Shown here: piece by piece, positions 20,552 through 49,393 of the stretch
How the letters are laid out: each line of letters begins with the position of its first letter
Position numbering within the stretch: position 1 is the first letter of the stretch
Assembly: GCF_002909235.1 (NCBI RefSeq)
Contig: NZ_PHQQ01000018.1
Coordinates: 1 to 64,000, forward strand
Length of the DNA stretch: 64,000 nt
DNA from: Arenibacter catalasegens
GTDB taxonomy: Bacteria; Bacteroidota; Bacteroidia; Flavobacteriales; Flavobacteriaceae
Direction of reading: 5' to 3'
Translations under genes and position numbers: made by a program
Notes under the pieces: generated by a model
What the model saw: only the letters and a program-made list of their open reading frames with translations
What the model was told of the DNA's origin: nothing
Database searches by the model: none

Positions 20552-20612
20552 AAGGGAATTTATATTGGGTAAACCTTGATTGTAATCGATGTTTTCCATT
20601 AGTCAAAAGTTA

Positions 20613-20645: not shown

Positions 20646-20857
20646 CTCAAATCACAGGAATTAACACTTCAGAACCAAAAATTTTTACACAGGATATTAC
20701 CGTTCGTTGCTTTCACGTATTAAAGAAAAAGGAACAACTTGATCTATGGTCAAATTTGTTTTCTATGGATTGGTATGGCTAAGTTCAAAAAAATAATCCT
20801 TGACATGATAGGCCTTGGTAACCTGCATTATTATAAATATTACCATCTATTATTAAA

Positions 20858-22642: not shown

Positions 22643-22660
22643 AACCAATAATTTAGTAGA

Positions 22661-24199: not shown

Positions 24200-24347
24200 A
24201 TTTAAATTGGAATTTTGCTTTTGGTTGCAAAAACGATAACTGTTATAAGCTTACAATCAAAAAAGAACAAAAAATAGTAGATTTGAGTTTTGGCCAAGGA
24301 TGAAAATAGGTGAAGTTAGGATAGATAAATATCATTATAAAGATAAT

Positions 24348-25847: not shown

Positions 25848-25875
25848 ATTTATAAAAATTAATTTAAAGGAAATC

Positions 25876-27459: not shown

Positions 27460-27630
27460 GTCTAATCCCAACGAAATGTAGCAATAATTCAATTCCCTCC
27501 TTATTGATCGAAATGAGCAAAAGAAAGGGCGAACTGAGAAATCCTATTTTAAGCGCAACCCTTAGGTTTGCTATATGCCTAATTTCCTTTTACCCATTTA
27601 TAACCCATGCTTAAAAATAAAAATTAAGAA

Positions 27631-29040
27631 ATGAAAATAAGATCTATAATCTTGTTCATTAGTTCCCTACTGCTCCTATCATGTGGTGGCAAACAAGAAG
27701 CTAAAAAGGAGGTAGTTTCCAAGGAAGAAACCCCACCTAATATCATATTCATTTTCGCTGATGATTGGGGCTATGGCGATTTGGGAATTCACGGAAGCAG
27801 CTTTTGCAAGACACCTAATCTAGATAAAATGGCGGCCGAAGGTATCGATTTTCAGAACTTCTCTGTTGTAAATCCTGTTTGTTCCCCAAGCAGGGTGGCT
27901 GTAATGACAGGTCAATACCCTGCACGACAAAGTGTTCATGGGCATTTTGCTTCCGTAGAATCACATATTCAAAGAAATATGCCGGATTGGTTGAATCCCC
28001 AGGCTCCCTTACTTCCCAAAATGTTAAAGGAAGCTGGATATTCCACGGCCCATTTTGGTAAATGGCATTTGTCCAATACCCATGTTGAAGATGCACCTTC
28101 TCCCTTGGAGTATGGATACGATGAGTATGGCGCATTTAATTTACCGAGCAACTTACATCAAATGCAGGCCGATTCTACTATATATAAAACTATTGATTTT
28201 GTGAAGCGCAATAAGGATAAGCCATTTTTTGTAAATGCCTGGATCCATGCAACGCATACTCCGCATTACCCTAAGGAGGAGTACATGCAACAATTTGCAC
28301 ATTTAGATGAACAGGAACAGGTTTATGCCGCTGTTGTGGCCGAGTATGATGCGCGTATTGGAAAACTGTTTGCCGCTCTAAAAACTTTGGGAATCGATGA
28401 GAATACTTTGGTTGTCTTCTCTTCTGATAATGGGCCCGAAATAACTGGTAAAAATAAAATAACGGAGGATAATTCTACAGGACCAGGTTTGGGAACTTAT
28501 TATTCGGTAGGGGAAACTGGTGGACTAAAAGGTCGTAAGCGTTCCCTTTTTGCAGGCGGTGTGCGTATACCGTTTGTGGTGCGCTGGCCCGGTAAAGTGC
28601 CAGCTGGAAGGATTGATAATACTACCGAAATGGCCACCATAGATTTACTGCCAACATTTTTGAATCTGGCAGGGGCAAGCTATACAGAGAATTACCAACC
28701 TGATGGCGAGAGTATAGTATCTGCTATTATGGGTAACGCTTTTAACCGACAAAAACCTATCTTTTGGGACTGGCGTTTTTCCAATGACCGAACAGATTTT
28801 TGGCCAAGTGCCGCTGTGCAAGAAGATAACTGGAAGCTATTGACGAATGATAAATTAGAAAGGACAGAACTATATAATATTGGTTTGGATTGGGCGGAGC
28901 AGAAGGATGTGTCTGCTGAAAATCCTGAAAAACTTAAGGAATTAAAGGGAAAGCTAAAAACTTTTAAAGAAACCCTACCTAAATCGGCCCCAGAAAATAG
29001 TTTTTCAAAAGCAAGAACGCCCCTTAATCCTATAGAATAG
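27631..29040 (+). CDS. Sulfatase lipoprotein (S1 family), FGly type
   Basis: This 469-residue sulfatase carries a lipobox LLLLSC18 and so is membrane-anchored. FADDWGYGDLG (42-52), the formylglycine motif C84-S-P-S-R, GKWHLSN and FSSDNGPE mark the active site. The lipid anchor suggests a periplasmic or surface place distinct from the two soluble sulfatases of this operon. It is the last plus-strand gene of this block and converges with the DUF6250 gene. Confidence 0.92.
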   Translation: MKIRSIILFISSLLLLSCGGKQEAKKEVVSKEETPPNIIFIFADDWGYGDLGIHGSSFCKTPNLDKMAAEGIDFQNFSVVNPVCSPSRVAVMTGQYPARQSVHGHFASVESHIQRNMPDWLNPQAPLLPKMLKEAGYSTAHFGKWHLSNTHVEDAPSPLEYGYDEYGAFNLPSNLHQMQADSTIYKTIDFVKRNKDKPFFVNAWIHATHTPHYPKEEYMQQFAHLDEQEQVYAAVVAEYDARIGKLFAALKTLGIDENTLVVFSSDNGPEITGKNKITEDNSTGPGLGTYYSVGETGGLKGRKRSLFAGGVRIPFVVRWPGKVPAGRIDNTTEMATIDLLPTFLNLAGASYTENYQPDGESIVSAIMGNAFNRQKPIFWDWRFSNDRTDFWPSAAVQEDNWKLLTNDKLERTELYNIGLDWAEQKDVSAENPEKLKELKGKLKTFKETLPKSAPENSFSKARTPLNPIE

Positions 29041-34199: not shown

Positions 34200-35450
34200 T
34201 TATTTGGTTTTGGTTACTATGGATGCGGTTAAAGGAATGCCGGATTTGAGTTTTTTCAACCTTAGAAGTGCCTCCACATAATAATAATCTGCGTAATTAA
34301 TGGAATAGTCAATTTCGCTGCCATTGGGTTTATGGCCTGTGGAATGCAGTAAAAATGCTGAATTTTTATCTTTGCTTTGGTAGTTGTTGGATAGCTCTAC
34401 AAGCATTTTTTCGGCTTTGTCCAAATAATTTTTGGCAAGAATTGAATCTTTGGTGAAGGTAGAAAGTTCCAAAAGCGCTGATGAAACCAAGGCCGCTGCC
34501 GAGGCATCCCTTGGTTCATTGGGGATGTTGGGCGCATTAAAATCCCAATAGGGAATTAGATCATTAGGTAGGCGTTCCAGATATACTTTGGCAGTCTTTT
34601 GTGCAAGATCTAGATACTTGGCATCACCCGTTTCCCTAAATACCATGGTATAACCATAAATGGCCCATCCCTGTCCACGGGCCCACATACTATCATCGGC
34701 ATATCCTTGATGGGTAACCCCTTTAATTTTATCCCCAGTTTCCCTGTCGTAGACCACTACATGGTATGAAGTGTAATCTGGTCTAAAATGATTTTTCATT
34801 GTTACATCGGCATGGCTTACCGCGATGTCATATAGGGATTTGTCACCTCCATTTTTTGAAGCCCAGAACAAAAGTTCCAAGTTGATCATGTTATCCATAA
34901 TGGTATTGTGCTGGGGCCATTCCATATTGGGTACTTCGCGGGGCCAAGAAAGGATGGTACCTACTTTTGGATTGAACAAAGTAGCCAAAGTGTCCGCGGT
35001 TTTAAGTATAATTTCCTTGTATTCAGGGTTTCCAGTTAGCCTATATCCATTTCCAAAACTGTTGAAGACCTGGAAGCCTAGATCATGGTCCAGGGCAGGA
35101 GTAACCGAAAGAGGGGTGAGATACCTACTGAAGGCATCGGCTTGTTCTTTCCATTTTAGGTCATTGGTGTTTTCATATAGATACCACAGGGTTCCAGGCC
35201 AAAATCCGCTTGTCCAATCCGTGTAGTTTATAAAACGCCATTCCTGACTATCTGGGGCAATATTTCTCGGAATACTTTTGTTATCGTTGGGAATAAGAGT
35301 TAGGGTCTGGGAGGCTTGGTGCTCACAATATGCTAGTTGTCTTTCTATATCAAAGGTTGAGGTATTGCTTTTTTGAGTTTTTTTATTGCCGCAACTAATC
35401 GCCAAGCATAGCAAAACAAAGGAAGCTAAAATTTGTAATTTATTTGTCAT
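34200..35450 (-). CDS. Unsaturated glucuronyl hydrolase, GH88
   Basis: This 416-residue lipoprotein (lipobox LAISC20) has the (alpha/alpha)6 barrel of GH88. Asp123 in DHDLGF and Asp186 in TIMDNMIN correspond to the two catalytic aspartates. The enzyme hydrates and splits 4,5-unsaturated uronic acids at the non-reducing end of lyase products. Its presence implies a uronate-containing substrate and a polysaccharide lyase, which is not in this window. It is the first gene of the minus-strand operon. Confidence 0.92.
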   Translation of the reverse strand: MTNKLQILASFVLLCLAISCGNKKTQKSNTSTFDIERQLAYCEHQASQTLTLIPNDNKSIPRNIAPDSQEWRFINYTDWTSGFWPGTLWYLYENTNDLKWKEQADAFSRYLTPLSVTPALDHDLGFQVFNSFGNGYRLTGNPEYKEIILKTADTLATLFNPKVGTILSWPREVPNMEWPQHNTIMDNMINLELLFWASKNGGDKSLYDIAVSHADVTMKNHFRPDYTSYHVVVYDRETGDKIKGVTHQGYADDSMWARGQGWAIYGYTMVFRETGDAKYLDLAQKTAKVYLERLPNDLIPYWDFNAPNIPNEPRDASAAALVSSALLELSTFTKDSILAKNYLDKAEKMLVELSNNYQSKDKNSAFLLHSTGHKPNGSEIDYSINYADYYYVEALLRLKKLKSGIPLTASIVTKTK

Positions 35451-36084: not shown

Positions 36085-37056
36085 ATGAACATGATTTACA
36101 ACTTAAGTTCTTCTATTAAATACAAATTAATGGTCCTATGTTTAGTACTCTTAATTGCAGGATGTAAGGAAAAACAAGACAAGAACACGCATATTAATTC
36201 AGAGGAAATTGCCCACGAACAAAAACAGGGATTGTACCAAAGTAACGAATTTACCAAACTGTCTCTCTTTCCGTCCGGAATTGAGGGCCCTGCCGTGGAT
36301 GCCAAGGGAATCTTATATGCGGTTAATTTTGATAGTACAGGAACCATAGGCAAGGTGGATTCCAATGGAGAAGCTTCCCTATTTGTTAATTTGCCAGAGG
36401 GTAGTATTGGCAATGGAATTCGTTTCAATAGCAAGGGCGAAATGTTCATAGCAGATTATACCAAGCATAACATATTAAAGGTGGACATGGGTACCAAAGA
36501 GATCAGTGTATTTGCCCATAATGATAGTATGAACCAACCCAATGATATCGCAATAATGGACAACGATATACTTTTCGCCAGTGATCCAGATTGGAAAAAT
36601 TCAAAAGGACAAATTTGGCGGATAGATTCGGATGGAGCTTTTAGTCTGTTGGAAGGAGATATGGGAACTACTAATGGGATAGAGGTAAGTCCGGACAATA
36701 AAATACTTTATGTTAACGAATCGGTGCAGCGCAATGTATGGGCATACGACCTTTCACCTAAGGGGGAAATAAGTAATAAACGTCTGCTTATTAAATTTGA
36801 AGATTTTGGCATGGACGGCATGCGTACAGACATCAAAGGAAATTTATATATCACCCGCCACGGTAAGGGCACAGTAGTTAAAGTTTCACCTCAAGGCAAA
36901 ATATTAAAGGAAATAGAATTAAAGGGAAAAACTCCCTCGAACATCGCTTTTGGTGGAAATTATGGCACAACGGCCTTTATAACGCTTCAGGACAATGGTA
37001 ATTTTGAAACCTTTGAAACGGAAGACCCTGGAAGGGAATTTTCAATGAAAAAGTAG
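36085..37056 (+). CDS. SMP-30/gluconolactonase-like lipoprotein
   Basis: This 323-residue beta-propeller protein has a lipobox (LIAGC27). Metal- and substrate-binding residues of the SMP-30 family are in place: Glu67 (IEGPAVD), Asn197 (TNGIEVSPD) and Asp244 (GMDGMRTD). The family opens sugar lactones to aldonic acids. Being a lipoprotein, it acts outside the cytoplasm. It is the first gene of a plus-strand set that includes exported RidA, SelA-like and RraA-like proteins, which suggests handling of an oxidised sugar in the periplasm. Confidence 0.8.
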   Translation: MNMIYNLSSSIKYKLMVLCLVLLIAGCKEKQDKNTHINSEEIAHEQKQGLYQSNEFTKLSLFPSGIEGPAVDAKGILYAVNFDSTGTIGKVDSNGEASLFVNLPEGSIGNGIRFNSKGEMFIADYTKHNILKVDMGTKEISVFAHNDSMNQPNDIAIMDNDILFASDPDWKNSKGQIWRIDSDGAFSLLEGDMGTTNGIEVSPDNKILYVNESVQRNVWAYDLSPKGEISNKRLLIKFEDFGMDGMRTDIKGNLYITRHGKGTVVKVSPQGKILKEIELKGKTPSNIAFGGNYGTTAFITLQDNGNFETFETEDPGREFSMKK

Positions 37057-37301
37057 CTTTAAATATTTAGAACTAAGCTTACTGTAGTTGTTCAGCTATA
37101 TTGGAAGGGATTACTTAGTGCTTTAAAATTTTGGCTTCCTAGGACTCCTAAAACAATAATATGGGCGAATATTTCAAGATGGCGAAAATTTCATATATTC
37201 ATGATGTGGACAATATATAATTCAATAACAAGCTTTTGGAGCTTTTAGAGGATCATTAATCAATTTATTACATAAAACAAATAATCATAATTTAAATAGG
37301 C

Positions 37302-37778
37302 ATGGAAAACAAAACAACAAGAAGGGCATCTTTTAAGAAACTAGGAATGGGATTGGCAGCTATGTTTGGCCTAGGTGCCGCCGCCAAGGCTATGGACGAT
37401 GGATCAAAACCAAAAAAAGAAGTCGTTGGAGACATCGTTATGGATCAGGATATTCCATTATTTTCAGGAGGCGTAAAACACGGGAATACCCTTTATATTG
37501 CTGGGAAGGGCGCACATGTGGAACCCTATGAGATCAAGGCACATACCGAAATTGTATTGCAAGAGCTGGAAAAGGAGTTAAAAAAACATGGTTCTTCCAT
37601 GGAAAAAGTGCTAAAAGTGAATGTGTATTTGGCAGATTTGGCGGACTACAAAGGGATGAACGAAGTATTTAGGGGGCGTTTTGGACCAAACCCACCAGTA
37701 AGGACTACTGTGGCAACCTATGGCGGTGTTCCTGGGAATTCATTAGTGGAAATGGACTGTATAGCCGCCTTGGATTAA
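37302..37778 (+). CDS. RidA-family imine deaminase with Tat signal
   Basis: The 158-residue protein has a RidA/YjgF fold from about residue 40. Arg134 in PPVRTTV matches the Arg that RidA needs to hydrolyse 2-imino and enamino acids released by PLP enzymes. The N-terminus, TTRRASFKKLGMGLAAMFGL, looks like a twin-arginine signal, which is unusual for this normally cytoplasmic family. The next gene, four bases downstream, encodes a PLP enzyme that also has a Tat-type signal. Together they make a coherent pair. Confidence 0.85.
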   Translation: MENKTTRRASFKKLGMGLAAMFGLGAAAKAMDDGSKPKKEVVGDIVMDQDIPLFSGGVKHGNTLYIAGKGAHVEPYEIKAHTEIVLQELEKELKKHGSSMEKVLKVNVYLADLADYKGMNEVFRGRFGPNPPVRTTVATYGGVPGNSLVEMDCIAALD

Positions 37779-37782
37779 TAAT

Positions 37783-39015
37783 ATGATTTCAAGAAGGAAA
37801 TTATTAAAGAATTTATCGGCGCTGCCGGTAGTTGGCGGATTAATGGGAACTGGATTATTGTCTGCAAATGCACCGGGTAGACCGCTAACAAATCCACTGG
37901 AACTAGATCTTTTTAAGGAACTTGGAGTTACCCCTGTCATTAATGCTAATGTAACTATGACTTTTTTGTCGGGCTCTTTAATGAGACCGGAAGTCATGGA
38001 TGCCATTAATTCTACAGCGCATGATTTTGCGAATATGCACGAATTGCAGGATAAGATAGGGGACAAGATTGCGGAAATGTTGCAATGTGAAGCTGCTATG
38101 GTTACTTCCGGTGCCGCCTGCGCAATGGTTCTAGGAACCGCTGCAACAATTACGGGAACAGATGAAAACAAGAGAAAGCTATTGCCAAATCTTCCAGGTC
38201 CCCGTCCAGAGGTTATTATGCAGAAAAGCCATAGGTATGTATTTGACCAAGCGATTACCACAACTGGTGCCGTTATTGTTGAAGTTGATGGCCCAAGAGA
38301 AATGCAACAGGCTATTAATAGCAATACCGTAATGGCCCTATTCTTTAATGCAGCCGGTAAATCCAGTATTTCACATGAAGAGTTTGTAGCTATAGCTAAA
38401 CGTAATAAAATTCCATCTTTTATTGATGCAGCGGCAGACGTTCCCCCGGTAGAGAATCTCTTTAAATTTCAAAAGATGGGGTTCGATTTAATTACTTTTT
38501 CTGGCGGTAAGATGATCAGAGGACCACAAAGCACAGGATTGTTATTTGGAAGAAAAGATCTGATCGAGGCAGCCAAATTGAATCATAGTCCACATGAAGC
38601 TCCCATTGGTAGGCCAATGAAAGTAAATAAAGAGGAAATGTTCGGTATGTATGTAGCCTTAAAATCATACTTGGAAAGAGACCATGAGGCAGAATGGCAA
38701 GATTGGTTAAATCGTATAGAACGTATAAAATTGCAGTTGGAAACCATATCTAGCGTAAAAGGAGAAACCTATATTAGTTCTGGGCCTGCAAATGCTTTCC
38801 CAAGTATGTTGGTCAGTTGGGACCCAAGTAAAGTCAAGATAAGTCCAAGTGATGTTTACAACGAACTCAAAAATGGAACCCCCAGTATTGTTACAAATGT
38901 TAGAAAAGACGGGAAGAAAGAAAAGTTGACTGTTGGGGTGGTATTATTGAAACCCGAACAGGTTGATATTGTTGCAATTCGATTAAAGGAAATTTTAGAA
39001 AAAGCCTATATGTAA
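37783..39015 (+). CDS. Exported SelA-like PLP-dependent lyase/aminotransferase
   Basis: This 410-residue fold-type I PLP enzyme belongs to the SelA/D-glucosaminate-6-phosphate ammonia-lyase group. Lys243 in TFSGGKMIRGP should bind PLP and Asp215 in FIDAAAD should contact its ring. The N-terminus SRRKLLKNLSALPVVGG is a good twin-arginine signal, suiting export of a folded, cofactor-loaded enzyme. Likely chemistry is ammonia elimination from a 2-amino acid or amino sugar acid, whose enamine product RidA would hydrolyse. True SelA activity on seryl-tRNA is excluded by export. Confidence 0.8.
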   Translation: MISRRKLLKNLSALPVVGGLMGTGLLSANAPGRPLTNPLELDLFKELGVTPVINANVTMTFLSGSLMRPEVMDAINSTAHDFANMHELQDKIGDKIAEMLQCEAAMVTSGAACAMVLGTAATITGTDENKRKLLPNLPGPRPEVIMQKSHRYVFDQAITTTGAVIVEVDGPREMQQAINSNTVMALFFNAAGKSSISHEEFVAIAKRNKIPSFIDAAADVPPVENLFKFQKMGFDLITFSGGKMIRGPQSTGLLFGRKDLIEAAKLNHSPHEAPIGRPMKVNKEEMFGMYVALKSYLERDHEAEWQDWLNRIERIKLQLETISSVKGETYISSGPANAFPSMLVSWDPSKVKISPSDVYNELKNGTPSIVTNVRKDGKKEKLTVGVVLLKPEQVDIVAIRLKEILEKAYM

Positions 39016-39168
39016 GTGTTATTACTTAATTTATTTTACATATAATGGGTTACTTAATAGCGCAAAACGATACTGCTGAACACATATATTATTTGTTAAA
39101 TCCTAAAGAATAGATAGTATATGTATGTTTTATAAAAACGATCAATATTTTTTAAACCTTTTTACCTA

Positions 39169-40095
39169 ATGAAGTTCACTAGAATAGTACTATTTCTTTT
39201 CTTATTTACCCTCACTTTTAATGTCTTTGGACAGACCCTTCCCAAGGAGGAACTTATTTTTTTGACTTCCGAATGGAAAGGGGAACGGTTCGATGATGGT
39301 CGCCCAAAAATCCCTGACGATCTTTTGGAGCGGGCAAAAAAAATTGGTATCGATGATGCTTGGACCGTCCTTGAAAATGAAGGTTATAAGAATCAGTTCG
39401 AGGGCAATTGGAAAATGGTCCATAACGATGTTCCAGTTGTAGGCAGGGCACTTACCGCCCTATTCATGCCAAGCCGTCCCGATGTGGAGAAGAACATTAA
39501 GGAAAGGGGAATAAGTTCCCAGGGAAGGAAGGGCAACACAAATTCCTGGCCCATAGAGGTACTTACCAAGGGCGACGTATACGTGGCCGATAGTTTTGGC
39601 AAGATCGATGCGGGGACCCTTATGGGGGCTACCTTGGCAACCTCCATTTATAGCAAGTCCGGTAATGGCGTGGTCTTTAATGGCAGTGCAAGGGATCTGG
39701 AGAGTATTAGCCAGATGGAAGGATTCAACGCCTTTGTGCGGGATTTTCACCCGTCTTTTTTGGAGGAGGAAGTACTTATGGGGCTCAACACCCCAATACG
39801 GATAGGCCAGGTGATGGTATTGCCCGGTGATCTTGTTCTTGCCAAAAGGGAAGGCGTACTTTTTATTCCTGCGCATTTGGCCGAACAGGTAGTGGGCACT
39901 GCCGAGTTTGTGGCCCTTAAGGACCAATTTGGCTTTGAGATGGTCAGGACCAAGAAATATTCTACGGGAGAAATAGACAGCCAATGGACCGAACAGCTAA
40001 AAAAGGAATTTTTGGTGTGGTTGGACAAACATCCCGAATTGGTGAAGATGTCCAAGGAGACGTTAGATAAGGTATTAAGCAAAAGGACATGGTAA
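39169..40095 (+). CDS. Exported RraA-like aldolase
   Basis: This 308-residue protein has a Sec signal peptide (ending NVFGQ) and an RraA-like domain at about 75-260. Arg175-Asp176 in NGSARDLESI match the conserved G-x-x-R-D pair of 4-hydroxy-4-methyl-2-oxoglutarate and oxaloacetate-type aldolases. GDLVLAKREGVLFIPAHL is also typical. RraA-like enzymes cleave 2-keto acids to give pyruvate. Most are cytoplasmic, so export is notable. It sits 153 bases after the PLP enzyme gene, and its stop overlaps the next gene. Confidence 0.83.
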   Translation: MKFTRIVLFLFLFTLTFNVFGQTLPKEELIFLTSEWKGERFDDGRPKIPDDLLERAKKIGIDDAWTVLENEGYKNQFEGNWKMVHNDVPVVGRALTALFMPSRPDVEKNIKERGISSQGRKGNTNSWPIEVLTKGDVYVADSFGKIDAGTLMGATLATSIYSKSGNGVVFNGSARDLESISQMEGFNAFVRDFHPSFLEEEVLMGLNTPIRIGQVMVLPGDLVLAKREGVLFIPAHLAEQVVGTAEFVALKDQFGFEMVRTKKYSTGEIDSQWTEQLKKEFLVWLDKHPELVKMSKETLDKVLSKRTW

Positions 40096-40637
40096 TGGGA
40101 CAACATAAACTTATGAAAATGATAAACTTTAACGGCACCCGAACAATAAGCAGCGTTTGGATAGTTGCCATGTTGGCCCTGTTTGTTTTGATGGGGTGCA
40201 AACAAAATGAAAAGCAGGCAAAGTCTGAAACCCCGACCATTGCCATGGAGCAGGGACAAGACCCTCCCACGATCGATGAAGTCCAACAGGCGGTGTTGGC
40301 TTTTAATAAGGTCATGGTGGACCCTACCGCGGAACTAATGGAAAGGCTTTGCGCAGAGGAACTCACTTACGGCCATTCGAGCGGATTGATCCAGAACAAG
40401 GCCGAGTTTATAGATGATCTATTGAACGGGGCATTCGATTTTTTGTCTTTGGAAGCTCCTGATCAGACCATACATATTTCAGGGAACACGGCCATTGTCA
40501 GGCACATTTTTTTAGCCAAGGGCACCAATTCCGGAGAACCTGTGGATGTCCGTATCGGCAATATGCAGGTATACCAAAAAGATAAGGACGGCCAGCTCCG
40601 GCTTTTGGCCAGACAGGCCTATAAATTGCCCAACTAG
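40089..40637 (+). CDS. NTF2/SnoaL-like (DUF4440) lipoprotein
   Basis: This 182-residue protein has a lipobox (VLMGC) and an NTF2-like cone fold (about 60-180) of the DUF4440 type, with AEELTYGHSSGLIQNKAEF as landmark. Its ATG lies inside the end of the RraA-like gene; a start at 40113 would give a shorter signal. NTF2-like folds bind small molecules or act as isomerases or dehydratases, so a role on an intermediate of the neighbouring pathway is possible. The exact function is unknown. Confidence 0.72.
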   Translation: MVMGQHKLMKMINFNGTRTISSVWIVAMLALFVLMGCKQNEKQAKSETPTIAMEQGQDPPTIDEVQQAVLAFNKVMVDPTAELMERLCAEELTYGHSSGLIQNKAEFIDDLLNGAFDFLSLEAPDQTIHISGNTAIVRHIFLAKGTNSGEPVDVRIGNMQVYQKDKDGQLRLLARQAYKLPN

Positions 40638-40664
40638 AACCAAAATAACCTAAACCAAACTATT

Positions 40665-41753
40665 TTGAAAAAATTGAATATTTATTCCATTAGCCTTGGC
40701 ATGGCCGCCATATTGTTATTGTCCATCCTGGGGATGGTCTTTAGCGGTAACATTGAACATGCCGGCCTTTTGATTATGGCCTTTTTTGCACTTCTGGCCC
40801 TTGGCTTCAGTGGATACAAGTCCCTGAACAGTTATGTTTTTACAGCCTCCATATTTGCAGGGGTGGCCTTGGCGCTCTATTATCCCCAACATTTTTTGCA
40901 GATAGGCGATTTTAAGCTTACGGCCTTGATCATACCCTTGATCCAACTTATCATGTTCGGCATGGGAACCTCCATGAAACTTGGCGATTTTGCAGAAGTC
41001 ATCAAGGCGCCCAAAGGGGTCTTGGTCGGGGTTACGGCACAGTTGGGTATAATGCCCCTTATGGGCTTTGCTTTGGCTAAATTCAGTAATTTTCCACCGG
41101 AGATTGCGGCAGGGATCGTTTTGATCGGTTGTTCTCCAAGTGGTGTAGCCTCCAATGTAATGGCCTATTTGGCGAAGGCCAATCTAGCACTTTCCATCAC
41201 AATTACCTCTATCTCCACCATTCTAGCACCCTTTATAACACCACTTTTAATGAAGTTGTTGGCGGGGGAATTTATAGAAATAGATGTTTTGGTCATGATG
41301 TGGAGCATAGTCAAGATGATTATTTTGCCGCTTGGAGTTGGACTGCTCATTAACCAATTGAGGGGAGACAAGGGGAAATGGTTGGATAAGGCACTTCCTG
41401 TAATTTCCATGTTGGGTATCGGACTTATCATTGTAGTAATTACGGCTGCAGGTAGGGATAGCCTTTTGGATATTGGCGGAATCTTGATGTTATTGGTGTT
41501 GATCCACAATTTATTTGGCTATATGCTTGGGTATTGGTACGCACGCCTATTGAAATTAAATGAACAGGATGCACGTACTATTGCACTGGAAGTGGGGATG
41601 CAGAATGGCGGCCTCGCATCGGGCATTGCAAACTCATTGGGCAAAATAGCTACCATGGGTCTGGCACCTGCAGTCTTTGGACCCCTGATGAACATTACCG
41701 GGTCCATACTCGCTTCCTATTGGCACAAAAGACCTCCTAAAGAAAGTAATTGA
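40665..41753 (+). CDS. BASS-family (SBF) sodium:organic acid symporter
   Basis: This 362-residue inner-membrane protein has about ten hydrophobic segments. It matches the bile acid:sodium symporter superfamily: GTSMKLGDF, GCSPSGVASNVMAYLAKAN and EVGMQNGGLA are diagnostic. The start codon is TTG, preceded by an A-rich leader; the next ATG lies 12 residues in. BASS proteins import bile acids, pyruvate, pantothenate or other organic acids with sodium. Placed after exported PLP and aldolase genes, it likely brings in the keto acid they release. Confidence 0.85.
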   Translation: MKKLNIYSISLGMAAILLLSILGMVFSGNIEHAGLLIMAFFALLALGFSGYKSLNSYVFTASIFAGVALALYYPQHFLQIGDFKLTALIIPLIQLIMFGMGTSMKLGDFAEVIKAPKGVLVGVTAQLGIMPLMGFALAKFSNFPPEIAAGIVLIGCSPSGVASNVMAYLAKANLALSITITSISTILAPFITPLLMKLLAGEFIEIDVLVMMWSIVKMIILPLGVGLLINQLRGDKGKWLDKALPVISMLGIGLIIVVITAAGRDSLLDIGGILMLLVLIHNLFGYMLGYWYARLLKLNEQDARTIALEVGMQNGGLASGIANSLGKIATMGLAPAVFGPLMNITGSILASYWHKRPPKESN

Positions 41754-41804
41754 TACTCATTTAAAAGTTAAATTTGATCAAACTAAAAACAATTAAATAG
41801 TAAT

Positions 41805-44030
41805 ATGTTGATTTTAAATAAATTAAGAGTGGCCCTGCTTCTTGTGGTCATTGTAAGTTGTGGAAAAAAGGAATACAAAGATAAAATATACGAAAAACCA
41901 GAAATTGTAAAGGAAGCTCCGTCGGACTTTCTTTCTCCTGAAGAAAGTCTAAAAAAGTTTTATCTACCCGAAGGATATAAGATAGAATTGGTAGCGAGTG
42001 AACCTATGGTAAATGAACCTGTAGCTATTGCGTGGGATGGCAATGGCAAGATGTATGTAGCTGAAATGAGTACCTATATGCAAAATGTGGATGGCCTTGG
42101 TGAAGACGAACCTACTAGTCAGATTAAACTCCTTATAGATTTGGATGGGGATGGTAAAATGGATAAGAGCACAGTGTTCATAGATAGTCTTTTACTTCCT
42201 AGGATGATTTTACCCTTGGATGACAGACTTATAGTGAATGAAACGTATTCCTATGATTTATGGAGCTATAGGGATACCGATAATGATGGTGTAGCTGATG
42301 AAAAAATCAGGATTTACGAAAATCCTAAAAGAAGGGGAGGTAATCTTGAACACCAACAAAGTGGTCTAATATGGAACTTGGACAATTGGGTTTATACCAC
42401 CTATAATCCATTGCGTTTCAGATTTAATAAGGATGGAATAAAAGTGGATTCCTTGGTAGATGGCTCTAGTGGACAATGGGGGCTAACCCAAGATGACTTG
42501 GGACATATGTATTATTCTTCTGCAGGTGGAGAAACTGCAGCATATGGTTTTCAAGTACCGGCAATCTATGGGGAAGTGGACCTAGAGGGACAAATTTCCG
42601 AGGGATTTATGGAGCCATGGCCTATTGTTGGTACCCCTGATGTACAGGGAGGTGCCGAATTAAGATTGAAGGAAGATGGCACCCTGAATAAATTCACCGG
42701 GGTTGCCGGACAAGAAATATTTAGGGGGGATAAATTACCTCCTTCTACTTATGGCGATCTATTTATTCCAGAACCTGTTGGAAGGTTGATCCGCAGGGCA
42801 AAAATAAAAAATGAGAACGGGAAAAAAGTGCTGTACAATGCCTACGATGAAGCCGAGTTTTTGGCATCTACCGATTTGAACTTTAGACCGGTCCAGGCAC
42901 AAACAGGACCTGATGGGAGTCTATATATTGTAGATATGTACCGCGGTATTATTCAGGAGGGTAACTGGACAAGGGAAGGAAGTCATTTAAGACCCGTTAT
43001 TCTTCGAAAAGGTTTGGACAATAACATTGGAAGAGGTAGGATTTATCGTATTATACATGAAGATATCAAACCGGATGGAAAACCCGACCTTTTGGATCGT
43101 TCCGCAGCCGAACTAGTGGATTATTTGGGACACCCCAACGGATGGTATAGAAATACGGCCCAAAAACTGATTATAATAAAAGGAGATATGGGCGTTGTGC
43201 CCAAACTGAAGGAAATAGCATTGAATAATGAGTCTTTTTGGACGAATAACTTTGGAAATAAGGACTATCCCCTTGAAAGGGTACATGCCCTATGGACATT
43301 AGAAGGGTTAGGTGTTGTGGATAAGTCACTTGTTCTTGAAAAGCTGAACGATCCAGACCCCAGGGTCCGTATTACGGCTATCAGGTTAAGTGAGGAATTT
43401 TTGAAGAAAGAGGATCAAGATATAATGCGGGCCTTGGCCATATTGCAAACAGATGGCGACATTAACGTAGTTAACCAATTGGTATTGAGTTTACGTTATT
43501 CCAAAAGTACTGAAGGCTCAGATCTCTTGAATGCTATCTCAGAAGAATACGGCGAAAATGAGCTGGTAGCTGCTTCCGTGGCATTAGGTTTAAAAGCTAA
43601 GGATTCAGATTTGCTAAAATTGAAGCATGGGTTGGCCAGTAAAAGTAATGGTCATAAATGGAGGGCTTTGGAAGGTTATGATATTTATAAACAGACCTGT
43701 GTTACCTGCCATGGTCCAGATTTAAAGGGGGTTCCCAATGGGGAAAATTCCCTGATCGCACCTTCTTTAATTGGTTCGCCAAGAGTTATGGGCGATCAGG
43801 AAGTGCTTGTAAAAATTCTTTTAAATGGACTTACTGGTCCAATAGACGGAACGGAATATGGTATTATGCTCCCAATGGGATCCAATGACGATGATTGGAT
43901 TGGTCATGTGGCCACTTACATTCGTTCTATGAACGATACTACCATGGTCCATGAAAATGAGGTGAGGGATATTCGTGCCAAAGACCCTGACAGGAAAAGC
44001 TACTGGACTTTAAAGGAACTGTTGAAGTAA
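41805..44030 (+). CDS. PVC-type dehydrogenase/cytochrome c lipoprotein
   Basis: The 741-residue lipoprotein has a lipobox (VIVSC) followed by a six-bladed beta-propeller of the 'membrane-bound dehydrogenase' type (about 40-400; LPEGYKIELVASEP is the usual opening). HEAT-like repeats lie at about 430-620 and a C-terminal cytochrome c domain has the heme motif CVTCH near residue 630. The family is best known from Planctomycetes and Bacteroidota, and its substrates are largely unproven. It likely oxidises a sugar or sugar acid in the periplasm and hands electrons to the respiratory chain. Confidence 0.8.
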   Translation: MLILNKLRVALLLVVIVSCGKKEYKDKIYEKPEIVKEAPSDFLSPEESLKKFYLPEGYKIELVASEPMVNEPVAIAWDGNGKMYVAEMSTYMQNVDGLGEDEPTSQIKLLIDLDGDGKMDKSTVFIDSLLLPRMILPLDDRLIVNETYSYDLWSYRDTDNDGVADEKIRIYENPKRRGGNLEHQQSGLIWNLDNWVYTTYNPLRFRFNKDGIKVDSLVDGSSGQWGLTQDDLGHMYYSSAGGETAAYGFQVPAIYGEVDLEGQISEGFMEPWPIVGTPDVQGGAELRLKEDGTLNKFTGVAGQEIFRGDKLPPSTYGDLFIPEPVGRLIRRAKIKNENGKKVLYNAYDEAEFLASTDLNFRPVQAQTGPDGSLYIVDMYRGIIQEGNWTREGSHLRPVILRKGLDNNIGRGRIYRIIHEDIKPDGKPDLLDRSAAELVDYLGHPNGWYRNTAQKLIIIKGDMGVVPKLKEIALNNESFWTNNFGNKDYPLERVHALWTLEGLGVVDKSLVLEKLNDPDPRVRITAIRLSEEFLKKEDQDIMRALAILQTDGDINVVNQLVLSLRYSKSTEGSDLLNAISEEYGENELVAASVALGLKAKDSDLLKLKHGLASKSNGHKWRALEGYDIYKQTCVTCHGPDLKGVPNGENSLIAPSLIGSPRVMGDQEVLVKILLNGLTGPIDGTEYGIMLPMGSNDDDWIGHVATYIRSMNDTTMVHENEVRDIRAKDPDRKSYWTLKELLK

Positions 44031-44036
44031 TGTAAA

Positions 44037-44074
44037 AAAGGGGACCGAATTACAGACGTATTCGTTGCCCCTTT
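44037..44074. terminator. Bidirectional terminator between convergent genes
   Basis: AAAGGGG (44037-44043) pairs with CCCCTTT (44068-44074) around a 24-base loop, between the cytochrome gene and the end of the Gfo/Idh gene. A- and T-rich flanks suit termination from both sides. Confidence 0.45.
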
Positions 44075-45042
44075 AAATTGCTTTCTTCTAACTTTTCAAT
44101 AACAATCATGTTCTTAACGGCATCCTCCAAGGGAGTGGGCACAGGGGTATTATTTTTTATGGCCAAGGCAAAAAGGTCGGCCTGGATTGTGTATTGATTA
44201 CAGATATCAAATTCAATGGTTTGGCACTCCTCGTCTATTGTGACCCATATTTTTGCTGGCCTATCTATCGGAGGGTTAAAGGGCAGTTCAAATCTTATAT
44301 TTCCCTTGGTTCCGAAAATTTGTGCCTGTTGATTGTACGCCAATTGTGTTGCACTGAAGAATACAGAAGTCCCGGTTTCAAACTCCAATATTCCTGAGGC
44401 TAAAATATCTACCTTGAAATCTGGGTGATAGTCTATTACTGCGGAAATACTTTTAGGTTCCGAATTGAATATATAACGGGAAAGGGAAATAGAATAACAG
44501 CCAATATCCATTAGACTTCCGCCACCAAAATCTTTTTTATTTACGATGCTATTGGGATCGTCTTCATAAAATGAGAAGGAAGATTGTATCGTTTTAATTT
44601 CACCAATTACCTTTTGGTCCACAAGTTCCTTGGCTTTTATCCATTGTGGATGATGTCTGTACATAAAGGCCTCCATAACCTTTAGATGGGGATATTTTTG
44701 GGAGGCCTTCAACAACTTTTCAGCCTCCTTACTGGATAGTCCAACTGGTTTTTCAACCAGTACGTGCTTGTCCGCTTCCAGGGCTTTTATGGCCCAGGCA
44801 ACGTGAAGATGATTGGGCAGGGGAATATAGACGGCGTCTACCTCCTTATCTGCTAGTATTTCTTCGTAAGAACCGTAGAATTTCGGAATTTTAAATCGCT
44901 CGGATATATCCTTCGCCTTGTCCAAATTCCTTGAGGCAATAGCATGAACATCACCATGTAGGCAGTTGAGCATTGCCGGAATTACCTGTTCCGTTGCAAT
45001 ATGGGCAGTGCCCAAAACACCCCATTTTAGTTTTTTGTTCAT
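44050..45042 (-). CDS. Gfo/Idh/MocA-family NAD(P)-dependent oxidoreductase
   Basis: This 330-residue cytoplasmic dehydrogenase has an N-terminal Rossmann fold (GVLGTAHIA, residues 9-17), the EKPVGLSSKEAEKLL motif around residue 97, and the C-terminal GFO_IDH_MocA domain with GGSLMDIGCY. It oxidises or reduces a sugar or inositol-like compound. It is the last gene of the minus-strand operon, 8 bases after the DapA-like gene, so its substrate is probably linked to the aldolase reaction. Confidence 0.9.
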   Translation of the reverse strand: MNKKLKWGVLGTAHIATEQVIPAMLNCLHGDVHAIASRNLDKAKDISERFKIPKFYGSYEEILADKEVDAVYIPLPNHLHVAWAIKALEADKHVLVEKPVGLSSKEAEKLLKASQKYPHLKVMEAFMYRHHPQWIKAKELVDQKVIGEIKTIQSSFSFYEDDPNSIVNKKDFGGGSLMDIGCYSISLSRYIFNSEPKSISAVIDYHPDFKVDILASGILEFETGTSVFFSATQLAYNQQAQIFGTKGNIRFELPFNPPIDRPAKIWVTIDEECQTIEFDICNQYTIQADLFALAIKNNTPVPTPLEDAVKNMIVIEKLEESNLKGQRIRL

Positions 45043-45050
45043 TATTATAT

Positions 45051-45962
45051 TTAAATGACCTTTAATTCTTCAAACTGGTCTAAAAATTGTTTTACTTTCT
45101 GACGTTCCGTATTTTCAAATTTTCGTAACGGTAGTGCCATATTGTCCTCACAAATGTCCATTACGGATAAGGCGCATTTTATACCCTTGGTAATTCTGGA
45201 GGAATTCTTACCTACACAATAAATTGTGCTGTTTACAAAGGCAACCTTGTTACGCAGTACTTTTATATCCTCTAAATTGTTATCTACCGAGGCGTTGTAA
45301 AGATCAACAAATAACTCTGGCAAGAAATTTGCCCCACCAGCAACTGCCCCATGACCACCATGTAGTATAGTCTCTGGTAAAAACATTTCCGTCCCTACAA
45401 TAATGGAAAATTCTGGGCTCTCTTTAAATGCTTCAATAAGTGAGTAGAAATAGGACATATCCCCAGAGCTGTCCTTAATGCCTATGGCTCCTAATTCCTT
45501 GGCCCTTTTTACGGTTTCCAAAGAAAGGTGCAGTTTAGTACAGCTTGGCATATTGTACATCATAACGGGTAAGGACAATTGTGGAATTAAGCGCTCCAAA
45601 TAGTCGATCATTTCTTCTTGGGAAATGGGAAGATAATAAGGAGGGGCTACAACAACTGCTGTGGCACCAGCCTCTTTTGAGTGGGCCGCAATTTCCAAAG
45701 AACCATTAAAGGAGGTATCGGTTATACCCACTAAGACAGGAACTCTTCCTCGGATCATTGCACAAGCCTTGGTAATTAGTTCCTTTCGCAGCGCATAGGT
45801 AAGGCTCGGTGCTTCCCCATTAGTGCCTAATAGGAAAATACCGTGTACGCCACCAGTAATTAGATGCTCTATCAGTTTTTCCAAACCTTTTTCATCCAAA
45901 CCACCGTCTGCGGTAAGGGGGGTAACCATTGGGGGAATAATCCCTTTTAATTCTAATGTCAT
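45051..45962 (-). CDS. DapA/NanA-family aldolase, canonical active site
   Basis: This 303-residue class I aldolase of the dihydrodipicolinate synthase/N-acetylneuraminate lyase family keeps all landmarks: GTNGE (46-50), Tyr136 in MMYNMPS and the Schiff-base Lys163 in GIKDSSGD. In a PUL it most likely cleaves or dehydrates a 2-keto-3-deoxy sugar acid to pyruvate. The enzyme is cytoplasmic. The gene lies 8 bases before the Gfo/Idh gene and 154 bases after a second, diverged member of the same family. Confidence 0.88.
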   Translation of the reverse strand: MTLELKGIIPPMVTPLTADGGLDEKGLEKLIEHLITGGVHGIFLLGTNGEAPSLTYALRKELITKACAMIRGRVPVLVGITDTSFNGSLEIAAHSKEAGATAVVVAPPYYLPISQEEMIDYLERLIPQLSLPVMMYNMPSCTKLHLSLETVKRAKELGAIGIKDSSGDMSYFYSLIEAFKESPEFSIIVGTEMFLPETILHGGHGAVAGGANFLPELFVDLYNASVDNNLEDIKVLRNKVAFVNSTIYCVGKNSSRITKGIKCALSVMDICEDNMALPLRKFENTERQKVKQFLDQFEELKVI

Positions 45963-46116
45963 ATATTTTCTTTTGTTAAGAACAAAGTAAATTTAAAAGA
46001 TAGGGGTGCACCACAACTATATTATTTAAAACAGATAATATATTGCCTATTGTGTCTTTTATCCCACAGATTTGTAAGAACCTGAGATAAGATTGCCTGT
46101 GGGGTACTCTGCAATG

Positions 46117-47049
46117 TCAGTATTTATCTGCCCTTTGGGCCTTCAGTTGGTTTTCAAGCAGCAGTATTCTGTCTATATGTTTGTCAGCCAATTTTTCATG
46201 CATGGCATCAAAGGGTATAATGGGATTGCGTACGTTGGGGGTTTTATAAATACCTTGTCGATACAATAACCGTTTAAAAAAATGTATGGATATGTCCAGA
46301 TGTTGATTAGAAAAGGCCAATACAGGAATTATTTTCTCAAACAAGGCTTCTGCCTCTGCAATCCTCCCTGCTTCAAACAGACGGTGTATTTCGGTGTAAA
46401 TGACATGCATCCCTGTTGGCATAAAAGCGTGTACTCCTCTTTGAAGCCCCTCTATCATTTGTGTAACGGCCCAACCACCACTTAGGTTCAATTTGCCTTG
46501 TGTCAGTTCCAAAATACGGGAATATTTTGGGCCGGCCGGAACGGTTTCGATTTTTAAACAGCGAAATGCGGGTACTTTTTCGAATAAATCGCATATAATT
46601 TCATCCGATAGACCATATCCAGTTGCATCCCAATCTTGTAACATGATCATTTCCGGATCAAGTGACGCCAGTTCCATAAAATGATTTTGAAATTGGCATT
46701 CGTCAACATAGGGAATTTGAAACAATACGTTTTTACAACCTAAATCCATATAGGCTTTTAGGATTTCTTTGCTTTTTGATAAATCCTGTTCCCCTGCACC
46801 ACCTATAACGGGAACCTTGTCACCTACTGTTTCCAAGACTAGGCCCAGCATCTTGAGTCGCTCCGTTTTGGATAATTTATATACCTCCGCAGCCATAGCG
46901 GGCACCAAAATGCCAGCGACACCAGCCTCCACAGCCTGCAATACATTGTTTTTTAATGCCACTAGGTCTATGGTATCCGCTGTAGTAAAAGGAGTGTTGA
47001 GTACGGTAACAATTCCTTTTAGGGGATAGAGTTCTTTTTCGGCCCACAT
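46117..47049 (-). CDS. Diverged DapA-family aldolase
   Basis: This protein of about 310 residues has the DapA/NanA barrel with Schiff-base Lys in CLKIETVPAG. However, the usual catalytic Tyr motif (YN.P) reads MLQDWD and the GTTGE loop reads PAMAAEVY. It is therefore not a standard dihydrodipicolinate synthase. I start it at 47049, directly after the stop of the upstream glycosidase gene; an alternative ATG at 47076 would overlap that gene. Pairing with a canonical member in one operon suggests successive steps on related keto acids. Confidence 0.75.
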   Translation of the reverse strand: MWAEKELYPLKGIVTVLNTPFTTADTIDLVALKNNVLQAVEAGVAGILVPAMAAEVYKLSKTERLKMLGLVLETVGDKVPVIGGAGEQDLSKSKEILKAYMDLGCKNVLFQIPYVDECQFQNHFMELASLDPEMIMLQDWDATGYGLSDEIICDLFEKVPAFRCLKIETVPAGPKYSRILELTQGKLNLSGGWAVTQMIEGLQRGVHAFMPTGMHVIYTEIHRLFEAGRIAEAEALFEKIIPVLAFSNQHLDISIHFFKRLLYRQGIYKTPNVRNPIIPFDAMHEKLADKHIDRILLLENQLKAQRADKY

Positions 47050-47050
47050 A

Positions 47051-49393
47051 TTATGGTTGTTTAATAAGCCAAACATCGGTTACCCGGGATTGCTTTCTCC
47101 AATTCAGGTGTTCCTCATCGGGTTTGTCAAAGGTGATATTAAGTTTACCGTCCTTGATCAGATCCTTCGGAAGGGGAAATTCTTTAAATTCCTCAAAGCC
47201 TTTTTCATATTTGCTAGGTTTTAACCTTTCACCATTCGCCCTTAAAAGTGCTTCGCCATAACCTGAAACACGAATCAGGTAATTGGCATTGACATCCAAC
47301 TCAGTGTACTCCAAAGTGGGACTGAACTGGAACAATTGGGTAGTGAGTCGTTTCCTACTTAAGCCGTTATTTTCCCATAAGAAGTCAATGGCATCATCTG
47401 TTTTGGAAGTTTCATGAATGGCATCATGACTGGAAATATTGTCATAAAAACTACCATCCCCAGGGAATTCATAATTTCTAATAAATTCCAATCGTTCTAA
47501 TTTTTCGGCCTCGGATTTAAAAGCTTTAATTTTTTTGAACTCGTCCTCCAACCACCATCTATTATTTAAAGGATAATCTATAAAATCCAAAACTGCACCT
47601 CTTTCTGCGCCGCTTGCATTATACTTTTCCACACTGGTCTGCGCACCTATGGATTGAAATAGCTTTTCACCATAGTCAAAAACCCTTTCCTTCAGGTCTT
47701 GAGAAACCAATTCGGTATCTGCTTTATTAATGTGTTGCAGGGCATCGTTCATAGCCTTATCCGCCCCAATGGCCTTGGCCTTGGCCAGTATTTCATAAGC
47801 TTCAGCTTCCAGACCTTTTTCGTAGGACAGACGGTCTTGTATATAAGCGTCGTAATAGGCGCGCATAATTAATTGCTGCCATCTCCAATTATCTACCAGA
47901 TCAGGATTGTTGGCCTCCAATTTTTTCCAAAGGGCCAAGGTTTCTTTGATCGACTTGTTCTCCAAAATGGGTCCGTCCCAGTTCTTTTCCAAGTCAAATA
48001 TGCCTTTGGCCGCTTCTTCTGCCACCTCTGGACCAAAGAAAAATTGTGTGTATTCATGGATTATGGTTTTGGGATCTTTCTTGGAATCCCAACCTAATTG
48101 GCTCCATAGAATCTTATTTACATCATCATGAGTACCATCAGAATAGGTAATAAAGCCATCCGTGTATTTGCTGTCCCTATTAAAAAGCTTGGTGTACATG
48201 AGTGGCTGTGGGTTAGTGGGTTCCCTGCCCAAGGTCAATGCATATGCCTGATCCCATTTGTCCACGGGATAATGGCATCTAACGGTATGGGTTATATCTG
48301 GATAAAATCGGTGCATGTATTTTTTTGGCAACATTTCGCGCTCCAGGGCAATTGGGGGGCTACTTGGTCCGTAAACAATGCCTTTAAGCCAATCTGGACT
48401 CTCTTTGTCTAGGTAATCAAAAAAATAATCTACTTTTTCCTTATTAAAACCTTGTAAGGAAACCCAAATACTGGCATTTGGATGGTATTTGTGCAATATT
48501 TCCGACAGGTCATTTAAATAGGGTATTAGCTGGGCGGGATGGTTTTCCCCTGGGTCGCCACCTGGAACAAATACACCATCCAATCTAGGACATTTTGCAT
48601 AAAAGGCCTCTTGCTCCACAAGTCCTTCTTGATGGGCATTTTTTATGGTCAGGTCATGTGGTGCCGGTGTCCAGACCCAATACTCAGCATCGTATTTTTC
48701 ACATATTTTGCTCAATTCCACTTCCATAACTTGTGGGTCTACTTTAAAGTGGGGACTTGAAGTGGCTTCCTGAAATGGAATGTTTTCAAAACTATTGGCA
48801 CCAAAAAGTACCTGTTCCCTAAAATGCTGATCAAACTGTTCCACGGTCCAGGAGTCCCAGGAGTTGGCTGTATTCCTATACCCAAACTGATGTCCGCGAA
48901 GAGCGTACTCCGGAGCTTCGGAAAAATCAAAATTGGGAATAAGTGTTATTAGGTTCTTACTCATTTGAGCGGTTCGCAATAGTTTACCAATCCCATAGAG
49001 GATTCCTCTTTCATCTGCCCCAATGATCCATATGGTGTTTTTATGGCCTTTAGTCTCATGAAAAATACGATAGCCTTCTTTTTTAAACTCATTCCGATCC
49101 TCACCATCTCTGGCAGGAACCTTTTCCCCAAAGAGTTCCTTTTCATTGGCCAAGGTAAGGGCAATGGTGGTTTCGGAATCCCAATTATTTTGTAATCCTA
49201 GTCGTAGATCGGTGCGTTTTGCAATCTCTTCCACAAGTATGTTAACGGCTGTTTCCTGCACGGGCGATTTAAGCTGTGTAGATATCATAATATTTGCCTT
49301 AGAAAGATCCAAGGTTTTTTGAGCTTGCTCTGTACAGGACAGCAGGGTGCCCGAAATAATAAATGCCAGCCAAATTTTTAGTTTTGTTTTCAT
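47051..49393 (-). CDS. Unclassified glycosidase with GH67/GH20-type N-terminus
   Basis: The 780-residue lipoprotein (lipobox LLSC) has an alpha/beta N-terminal domain (about 30-145, IIGADERGILYGIGKLL) like those before GH20 and GH67 barrels. A putative TIM barrel follows (about 155-450), with YWVWTPAPHD, FVPGGDPGENHP and GFITYSDGTHDDVNK. A helical segment and a C-terminal beta domain complete it. Acidic residues in GGDPGE and the DGTHDD segment are candidate catalytic groups. It matches no family I can name with confidence; alpha-glucuronidase-like or hexosaminidase-like activity is possible. Confidence 0.6.
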   Translation of the reverse strand: MKTKLKIWLAFIISGTLLSCTEQAQKTLDLSKANIMISTQLKSPVQETAVNILVEEIAKRTDLRLGLQNNWDSETTIALTLANEKELFGEKVPARDGEDRNEFKKEGYRIFHETKGHKNTIWIIGADERGILYGIGKLLRTAQMSKNLITLIPNFDFSEAPEYALRGHQFGYRNTANSWDSWTVEQFDQHFREQVLFGANSFENIPFQEATSSPHFKVDPQVMEVELSKICEKYDAEYWVWTPAPHDLTIKNAHQEGLVEQEAFYAKCPRLDGVFVPGGDPGENHPAQLIPYLNDLSEILHKYHPNASIWVSLQGFNKEKVDYFFDYLDKESPDWLKGIVYGPSSPPIALEREMLPKKYMHRFYPDITHTVRCHYPVDKWDQAYALTLGREPTNPQPLMYTKLFNRDSKYTDGFITYSDGTHDDVNKILWSQLGWDSKKDPKTIIHEYTQFFFGPEVAEEAAKGIFDLEKNWDGPILENKSIKETLALWKKLEANNPDLVDNWRWQQLIMRAYYDAYIQDRLSYEKGLEAEAYEILAKAKAIGADKAMNDALQHINKADTELVSQDLKERVFDYGEKLFQSIGAQTSVEKYNASGAERGAVLDFIDYPLNNRWWLEDEFKKIKAFKSEAEKLERLEFIRNYEFPGDGSFYDNISSHDAIHETSKTDDAIDFLWENNGLSRKRLTTQLFQFSPTLEYTELDVNANYLIRVSGYGEALLRANGERLKPSKYEKGFEEFKEFPLPKDLIKDGKLNITFDKPDEEHLNWRKQSRVTDVWLIKQP

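Follow-up and report, generated by a model that had tools for sequence, protein, structure and literature searches.

A candidate extracytoplasmic deamination cassette for amino-sugar acids in Arenibacter catalasegens and other Bacteroidota

Why would a bacterium fit export signals to enzymes that are treated as cytosolic, as RidA and DgaE-family enzymes are? The question is raised by a 64,000-nucleotide stretch of Arenibacter catalasegens DNA (hereafter the window, i.e., the first 64000 bases of contig NZ_PHQQ01000018.1, in a genome of 5.45 Mb), where genes for a RidA and for a DgaE-like, pyridoxal 5'-phosphate (PLP)-dependent enzyme lie four bases apart and both predicted proteins begin with a twin-arginine leader. 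A first-pass annotation had grouped the two with an SMP-30/gluconolactonase-like (SGL) lipoprotein, an RraA-like protein and a BASS-family symporter, and had read the five genes as a periplasmic lyase-RidA-aldolase-symporter pathway. All five genes, as well as the four-base spacing, were found where that annotation placed them. We observed in silico that these genes are linked in relatives, that their export-type leaders are conserved and their catalytic residues kept, and that the PLP enzymes have lost the phosphate-binding arginines of their nearest solved homolog. On balance, we favor the reading that the cassette serves the extracytoplasmic catabolism of N-acetylated amino-sugar acids (2-acetamido-2-deoxy-aldonates, e.g., N-acetylglucosaminate or an epimer).

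Export-type leaders and catalytic residues

Related loci were taken as the best 80 of at least 501 relatives from a scan of named genomes, each covering up to 10 kb on either side of the PLP gene. Export was judged by motif conservation (a twin arginine and a hydrophobic stretch), with 647 unlabelled open reading frames (ORFs) of at least 200 amino acids from the same loci serving as controls. The motif was present in 69/71 window-type RidA proteins (RidA_A) and in 57/60, 61/61 and 7/8 members of PLP subfamilies A (the window's own), B (its sister) and C, respectively, versus 47/647 controls. These counts used the longest ORFs, some of which start too early, and excluded rows that were truncated at the edge of a locus or whose alignment began late (60/61 rows were retained for PLP subfamily A, 61/63 for B, 98/103 for the amidohydrolase described below, 54/56 for GSDH-cytochrome c and 19/20 for SGL). 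When the RidA orthologs were aligned, R7 and R8 were kept in 68/69, and a 13-row PLP alignment showed R4, R5 and K243 to be invariant while the remainder of the leader varied. Since the twin arginine precedes a hydrophobic stretch and the genome encodes TatC, the window's RidA and PLP enzyme are both predicted substrates of the twin-arginine translocation (Tat) system, in agreement with the initial claim. The three other RidA-family proteins of this genome have no twin arginine (0/3), and one of them passes the weak hydrophobicity mark.

The Sec-type proteins also have hydrophobic N-termini (amidohydrolase 98/98, RraA 46/47, the second exported RidA, RidA_B, 40/40, SMP-30 19/19 and GSDH-cytochrome c 54/54), but this mark is weak, as 414/647 controls pass it. 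The lipobox claimed for the SMP-30 protein was located, although a pattern search recovered it in only 6/19 relatives; the same search found it in 24/40 RidA_B proteins. Similar leaders were seen in Granulicella (Acidobacteriota), where genes for RraA, PLP enzyme, RidA, a second PLP enzyme, amidohydrolase and lactonase lie together, all six with export-type N-termini by eye. Such a leader is absent from seven PLP homologs, those of Rhizobium, Sagittula, Paraburkholderia, Enterococcus, Lacticaseibacillus, Haladaptatus and Halorussus. PvdN, a Tat-exported enzyme that also depends on PLP, provides a precedent for such export.

The catalytic residues named in the first-pass annotation were correct and are conserved: RidA Arg134 in 69/69 aligned orthologs, PLP Lys243 in 59/59 of its own subfamily (and the PLP lysine in 127/127 exported enzymes), and RraA R175 and D176 each in 45/46. 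The PLP enzyme had been described as SelA-like, but the DgaE ammonia-lyase model (TIGR01437) scores well above the SelA model (TIGR00474, 49.7 bits). The A1 profile of the PLP enzyme had Salmonella DGL as its nearest solved enzyme (7lc0, 1.2e-52); the enzyme matches DGL and SelA chains, a family other than fold-type III. Even so, we rejected its identification as a true DgaE, because its score lies below the TIGR01437 cut-off and because the residues that DGL uses for its phosphorylated substrate, as well as a histidine pair, are missing. PMC9529869 describes the DGL substrate phosphate as docked near Arg301, Arg332 and Arg346. All three arginines are kept in 0/127 exported enzymes (R301 alone remains in 1/59 subfamily A and 4/8 subfamily C rows, and R332 in 1/59 A rows), a loss consistent with a substrate that carries no phosphate, which is what one would expect outside the cell. 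Similarly, the His162-His163 pair occurs in 0/127 and H163 alone in 1/127 (a subfamily C row). Another histidine is present in this loop in 16/58 subfamily A rows besides the window's and in 6/60 subfamily B rows, and the exported enzymes possibly use a proton donor other than His163.

The DGL H163A mutant is reported to remain active yet free the enamine, and RidA is named as one enzyme that clears such enamines (PMC9529869). We considered whether loss of His163 explains the RidA partner and dropped the idea, as four proteobacterial homologs that keep both histidines (L188, L194, L195 and L196) also have a RidA nearby; enamine release is thus not established as the cause of the need for RidA.

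Taken together, predicted export of, and deamination by, the cassette are well supported in silico.

Gene linkage in this genome and its relatives

The window's cassette turned out to be longer than the five genes first described, which omitted a DUF4440 gene whose start overlaps the end of the RraA gene. It forms a plus-strand run of seven genes (36085-44030) that is bounded on both sides by minus-strand genes and ends in a DUF7133-cytochrome c lipoprotein (Table 1). Equating this last protein with the GSDH-cytochrome c protein of other loci was unsupported, as BLAST aligned nothing beyond a 31-residue segment and the cytochrome region, the latter at 36% over 108.

Table 1. Positions of the cassette, its flanks, its neighbors and the second cluster; window and contig numbering coincide
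Feature	Position	Strand	Evidence	Role
SMP-30/gluconolactonase-like (SGL) lipoprotein	36085..37056	+	PF08450 135.3 bits, cut-off 26.3; lipobox Cys27	proposed aldonolactonase
RidA	37302..37778	+	PF01042 64 bits, cut-off 27.3; twin-arginine leader Arg7-Arg8, catalytic Arg134	
DgaE-like PLP enzyme	37783..39015	+	TIGR01437 189.9 bits, cut-off 385.3; twin-arginine leader Arg4-Arg5, PLP lysine 243	proposed non-phosphorylated amino-aldonate ammonia-lyase
RraA-like protein	39169..40095	+	PF03737 67.3 bits, cut-off 24.5; hydrophobic leader	possible 4-hydroxy-2-oxo-acid aldolase
DUF4440 protein	40089..40637	+	PF14534 53.6 bits, cut-off 25.2; lipobox	
BASS-family symporter	40665..41753	+	PF01758 138.3 bits, cut-off 24.3; NF047939 PanS 231.2 bits, below cut-off 400; TTG start	proposed keto acid importer
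DUF7133-cytochrome c lipoprotein	41805..44030	+	PF23500 319.8 bits; TIGR02604 161.4 bits, above cut-off 122.2; CVTCH at residue 632	possible electron-transfer or dehydrogenase partner
Flanking gene	34200-35450	-		
Flanking gene	44050-45042	-		
Upstream region	9255-29040		hybrid two-component regulator, two alpha-L-fucosidase-like proteins, sulfatase	
Downstream region	44050-49393	-	Gfo/Idh oxidoreductase, two DHDPS-family proteins, protein with weak GH20/GH67 N-terminal matches (both below cut-off)	
Second cluster, amidohydrolase	about 94065-95318			
Second cluster, DgaE-like PLP enzyme	95411-96619			

A genome-wide search found 2 DgaE-like, 5 RidA-family and 2 RraA-like genes. Both DgaE-like genes have a RidA gene within ~250 bases, and one is followed by one of the two RraA-like genes, a grouping that exceeds chance given so few copies in 5.45 Mb. 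The second DgaE-like gene lies on the same contig, ~55 kb beyond the cassette, in a cluster that escaped the first-pass annotation and reads, in order, exported amidohydrolase, PLP enzyme, lipoprotein-type RidA and DUF5690 carrier. The set is therefore divided in this genome, one part lying at 36-44 kb in the window and the other at 94-99 kb on the contig. The amidohydrolase was labelled by BLAST, and a relative 74% identical to it (in locus L048) scores above the NF006689 deacetylase cut-off (444.3 versus 371 bits).

Across the 80 loci, the PLP gene is accompanied by an amidohydrolase in 62, any RidA in 62, GSDH-cytochrome c in 36, RraA in 32, BASS in 23 and SMP-30 in 13. Amidohydrolase and RidA occur together in 56/80, with RraA as well in 31 and BASS in addition in 19, while 6/80 have the amidohydrolase without RidA and 6/80 the reverse. 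A haem-linked sugar dehydrogenase is present in 39/80 loci and a lactonase in 15/80, 13 of these 15 with the dehydrogenase, and five loci (L075, L079, L092, L107 and L108) unite amidohydrolase, RidA, RraA, BASS, dehydrogenase and lactonase. The original deamination reading had thus missed both the amidohydrolase and the dehydrogenase. Where RidA and PLP genes are adjacent in that order, 66/69 pairs are at most 100 bases apart (all fetched loci, duplicates kept). SusC relatives occur in 26/80 loci; genes resembling SusD, sigma factors and anti-sigma factors also turn up repeatedly (the last two named by reading the sequences). As an aside, L092 also contains a weakly mutarotase-like gene and a pyrroloquinoline quinone (PQQ)-type dehydrogenase resembling the glucose/quinate/shikimate family (453 bits, cut-off 832.65). 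TRAP carriers were considered as substitutes for RraA and BASS, which was not borne out: of the 80 loci, 4 contain DctP, and among these four RraA occurs in one and BASS in two.

In line with the conservation that the first-pass annotation called for, the set recurs well beyond this genome, in Flavobacteriaceae, Sphingobacteriaceae, Chitinophagaceae, Saprospiraceae, Cyclobacteriaceae, Bacteroidales, Balneolaceae and one metagenome-assembled genome (MAG) of Acidobacteriota. The 80 loci sample these taxa unevenly (Mucilaginibacter 14 rows, one Balneolaceae MAG 6, Arenibacter 6), with 43 taxon labels derived from record titles. At 88-96% identity, neighbors in the present genome agree with named records of Arenibacter, its inferred genus. 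In the family sample, 25/299 genomes match the PLP enzyme, 24 strongly (E < 1e-60) and one weakly, and the window's own subfamily (at least 66% identity) is found in 8/299, its own genome counted. In the phylum sample, 69/395 match at E <= 0.001 and only 8 strongly, again counting its own; the remaining matches are short and probably represent other PLP enzymes. From these counts, the cassette is sporadic yet widespread.

The two PLP subfamilies, A and B, share about 50% identity. In a 68-row tree, the sampled A and B enzymes formed one group with Granulicella (100/100), although Granulicella sits on a long branch, making its placement uncertain, and the rooting serves display alone. Of note, a third exported subfamily (C, about 550 amino acids) was seen in L040 (1948-3573), L103, L104, L116, L123, L047, L051 and L052. 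The histidine of DGL position 112 is replaced in 8/8 of these enzymes, and the second Granulicella PLP protein (L186:8701-10299) is 42% identical to them. The Balneolaceae MAG 471R1 alone contributes 6/80 loci (L114, L116, L117, L123, L129 and L135), indicating that the PLP family has multiplied there. Separately, a protein with a DGL-like PLP domain on Sinorhizobium meliloti pSymA (L189:5944-7548) lies in a phosphonate/phospholipid-type cluster (aepX, cytidylyltransferase and CDP-alcohol phosphatidyltransferase).

As for the cassette's neighbors, the upstream region suggests a sulfated-fucan-type utilization locus, and a DHDPS-type keto-acid aldolase in the downstream region would fit downstream metabolism.

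A proposed route and its alternatives

We infer the substrate, the step order and the roles of RraA and the carrier as follows. The dehydrogenase-cytochrome c protein would oxidize an N-acetylhexosamine at C1, the lactonase would open the resulting lactone, and the exported amidohydrolase would take off acetate. The Tat-exported DgaE-like enzyme would then eliminate water to give an enamine or imine, which the exported RidA would hydrolyze to ammonia and a 2-keto-3-deoxy acid. RraA, where encoded, may split this acid into pyruvate and a C3 aldehyde, and a BASS, TRAP or DUF5690 carrier would bring the acid into the cell. An amino-aldonate substrate is suggested by the dehydrogenase-lactonase pairing, the deacetylase, the lyase, RidA and the RraA-type protein, all of which fit it; no other single substrate is known to us to suit every step of the set. 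The cog3964 deacetylases have reportedly been assayed on acetylated alpha-substituted acids, and plant BASS2 transports pyruvate. Acetic acid bacteria are listed in PMC9171043 as oxidizing glucosamine, mannosamine and galactosamine to their acids.

Several findings weigh against this reading. In 6/6 named Arenibacter loci (L130, L133, L137, L140, L143 and L145), a GSDH-cytochrome c gene precedes the amidohydrolase, but at the second cluster of A. catalasegens it is absent (contig about 93379-94065), and tblastn gave no remnant. The nearest copy in the genome is 54% identical and lies on contig 11 (the window belonging to contig 10) at about 48 kb, among nine GSDH-family genes genome-wide (8 above cut-off). 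No PqqE scored above its cut-off in the genome, so that the cell would need either to scavenge PQQ or to rely on a different cofactor. Moreover, RraA is absent from 48/80 loci and BASS from 57/80, and the PLP gene stands alone in 7/80; these absences are uncertain, as some contigs are short (57/80 loci exceed 18 kb). Lastly, the hydrophobicity mark discriminates poorly for the Sec-type proteins, and the RraA-like protein falls below the aldolase equivalog cut-offs (PRK09262 52 versus 179 bits, LigK 48.7 versus 304.5). Neither the genes present nor the known related enzyme DGL conflicts with the chemistry first suggested, whose weakest part is the aldol step. For the complete version, a non-phosphorylating Entner-Doudoroff-like N-acetylhexosamine route running from C1 oxidation (electrons to cytochrome c) through aldol cleavage outside the Bacteroidota cytoplasm, our confidence is low, and we put it forward as tentative. 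Were it true, only pyruvate and a C3 unit would need import, and acetate and ammonia would be shed outside.

Could the genes serve other substrates? The dehydrogenase (not seen in 41/80 loci) and lactonase might be independent neighbors of a cassette that deacylates and deaminates 3-hydroxy N-acyl D-amino acids (N-acetyl-D-serine/D-threonine type) outside the cytoplasm. The frequent lack of RraA would suit such a role, as would the range of OngC, a PLP deaminase of the Ong pathway discussed below, which reportedly also takes D-serine and D-threonine. We nonetheless regard it as unlikely, given that lactonase loci usually carry the dehydrogenase, that whole operons join all steps, and that an RraA-type aldolase would presumably be useless on a 2-keto acid lacking a 4-hydroxy group. 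Alternatively, the steps could be the same and the substrate a different amino-sugar acid (an aminouronic acid, or the oxidized end of a sulfated glycan) supplied by neighboring polysaccharide utilization loci. The window's cassette does adjoin sulfatase, GH88 and fucosidase genes, SusC relatives recur in the loci counted above, and the divergence of subfamilies A and B suggests differing substrates; yet the window's glycan neighbors are not labelled at other loci, where only sulfatase-like genes recur (9 loci), and kinship to DGL indicates aldonates, leaving this option rather improbable.

That the leaders are non-functional, with RidA and the PLP enzyme working in the cytoplasm, we consider very improbable: the twin-arginine motif is nearly constant in both families and rare in controls, the seven homologs from Pseudomonadota, Bacillota and haloarchaea manage without it, and TatC is encoded. 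We thus retain the extracytoplasmic catabolism of N-acetylated amino-sugar acids as our preferred reading.

Novelty and relation to known systems

An open-access literature search by title and abstract returned no description of an exported RidA, an exported DgaE-like enzyme or this cassette; the chemistry is already known, while its location and assembly look new, such removal of acetyl and amino groups having otherwise been placed within the cell. A deacetylation-deamination module outside the cytoplasm would alter the view of how communities use and share the amino-sugar acids that oxidative polysaccharide breakdown releases, as it would set free acetate, ammonia and keto acids beyond the inner membrane. 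It would also offer a candidate function for exported families named only 'aminotransferase class V-fold', 'RidA family' and 'RraA family', and a case of RidA with a constant metabolic partner.

Among known systems, the chitinotrophic haloarchaea Natrarchaeobius are described in PMC12343721 as having a predicted N-acetylglucosamine route via glucosaminate with a DGL homolog. Like the cassette, their chitinase clusters combine a glucose dehydrogenase, a DGL homolog and a 'RutC' family gene, and in haloarchaea the PLP enzyme adjoins glucose dehydrogenase and Rid genes. They differ in that the route is archaeal, a prediction only and proposed to involve phosphorylation, and in that the RutC gene is called a transcriptional repressor; given its place beside a PLP lyase, we consider a role as imine hydrolase to be at least as likely. 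Alphaproteobacteria (Sagittula, Aureimonas) similarly have modules of amidohydrolase/deacetylase, RidA and class V PLP enzyme, theirs with ABC importers; the members examined are without an export leader, and their PLP enzyme keeps the His-His pair and two of the three phosphate arginines. The RidA proteins of four loci, including Rhizobium and Paraburkholderia, are 44-53% identical to RidA_B.

The DgaE/DGL system shares with the cassette a homologous PLP lyase followed by an aldolase yielding pyruvate. Unlike the cassette, it is cytoplasmic and acts on a substrate phosphorylated by the phosphotransferase system; its lyase has three phosphate arginines and the His162-His163 pair, features missing from the exported enzymes. 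No RidA was found beside two plasmid-borne DgaE genes that keep all three arginines (L190 and L191) in a six-frame search of the stretch, where the plasmid gene tables are incomplete.

The closest functional parallel is the Ong pathway of Pseudoalteromonas prydzensis, in which, as PMC9537276 reports from mutants and enzyme assays, a deacetylase (described also in PMC12017989) and a PLP deaminase degrade N-acetylglucosaminate (GlcNAc1A), and a RidA whose role is given there as unknown is essential for growth on it. Both systems would thus direct an amidohydrolase deacetylase, a PLP deaminase and a RidA at one amino-sugar acid without phosphorylating it, and an Ong-like trio, defined by function class and not by orthology, is what lies beside the PLP gene in the 56/80 loci with amidohydrolase and RidA. 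Equating the two was rejected, as OngC has fold type III, unlike the cassette's PLP enzyme, which belongs to the DGL/SelA-type family. In the Ong pathway, OngB belongs to the D-aminoacylase type, both it and OngC are predicted to be cytoplasmic, an SSS carrier performs import, and 2-keto-3-deoxygluconate is phosphorylated, whereas the cassette combines an NF006689-family deacetylase with a DgaE-like PLP enzyme and bears export-type leaders on all.

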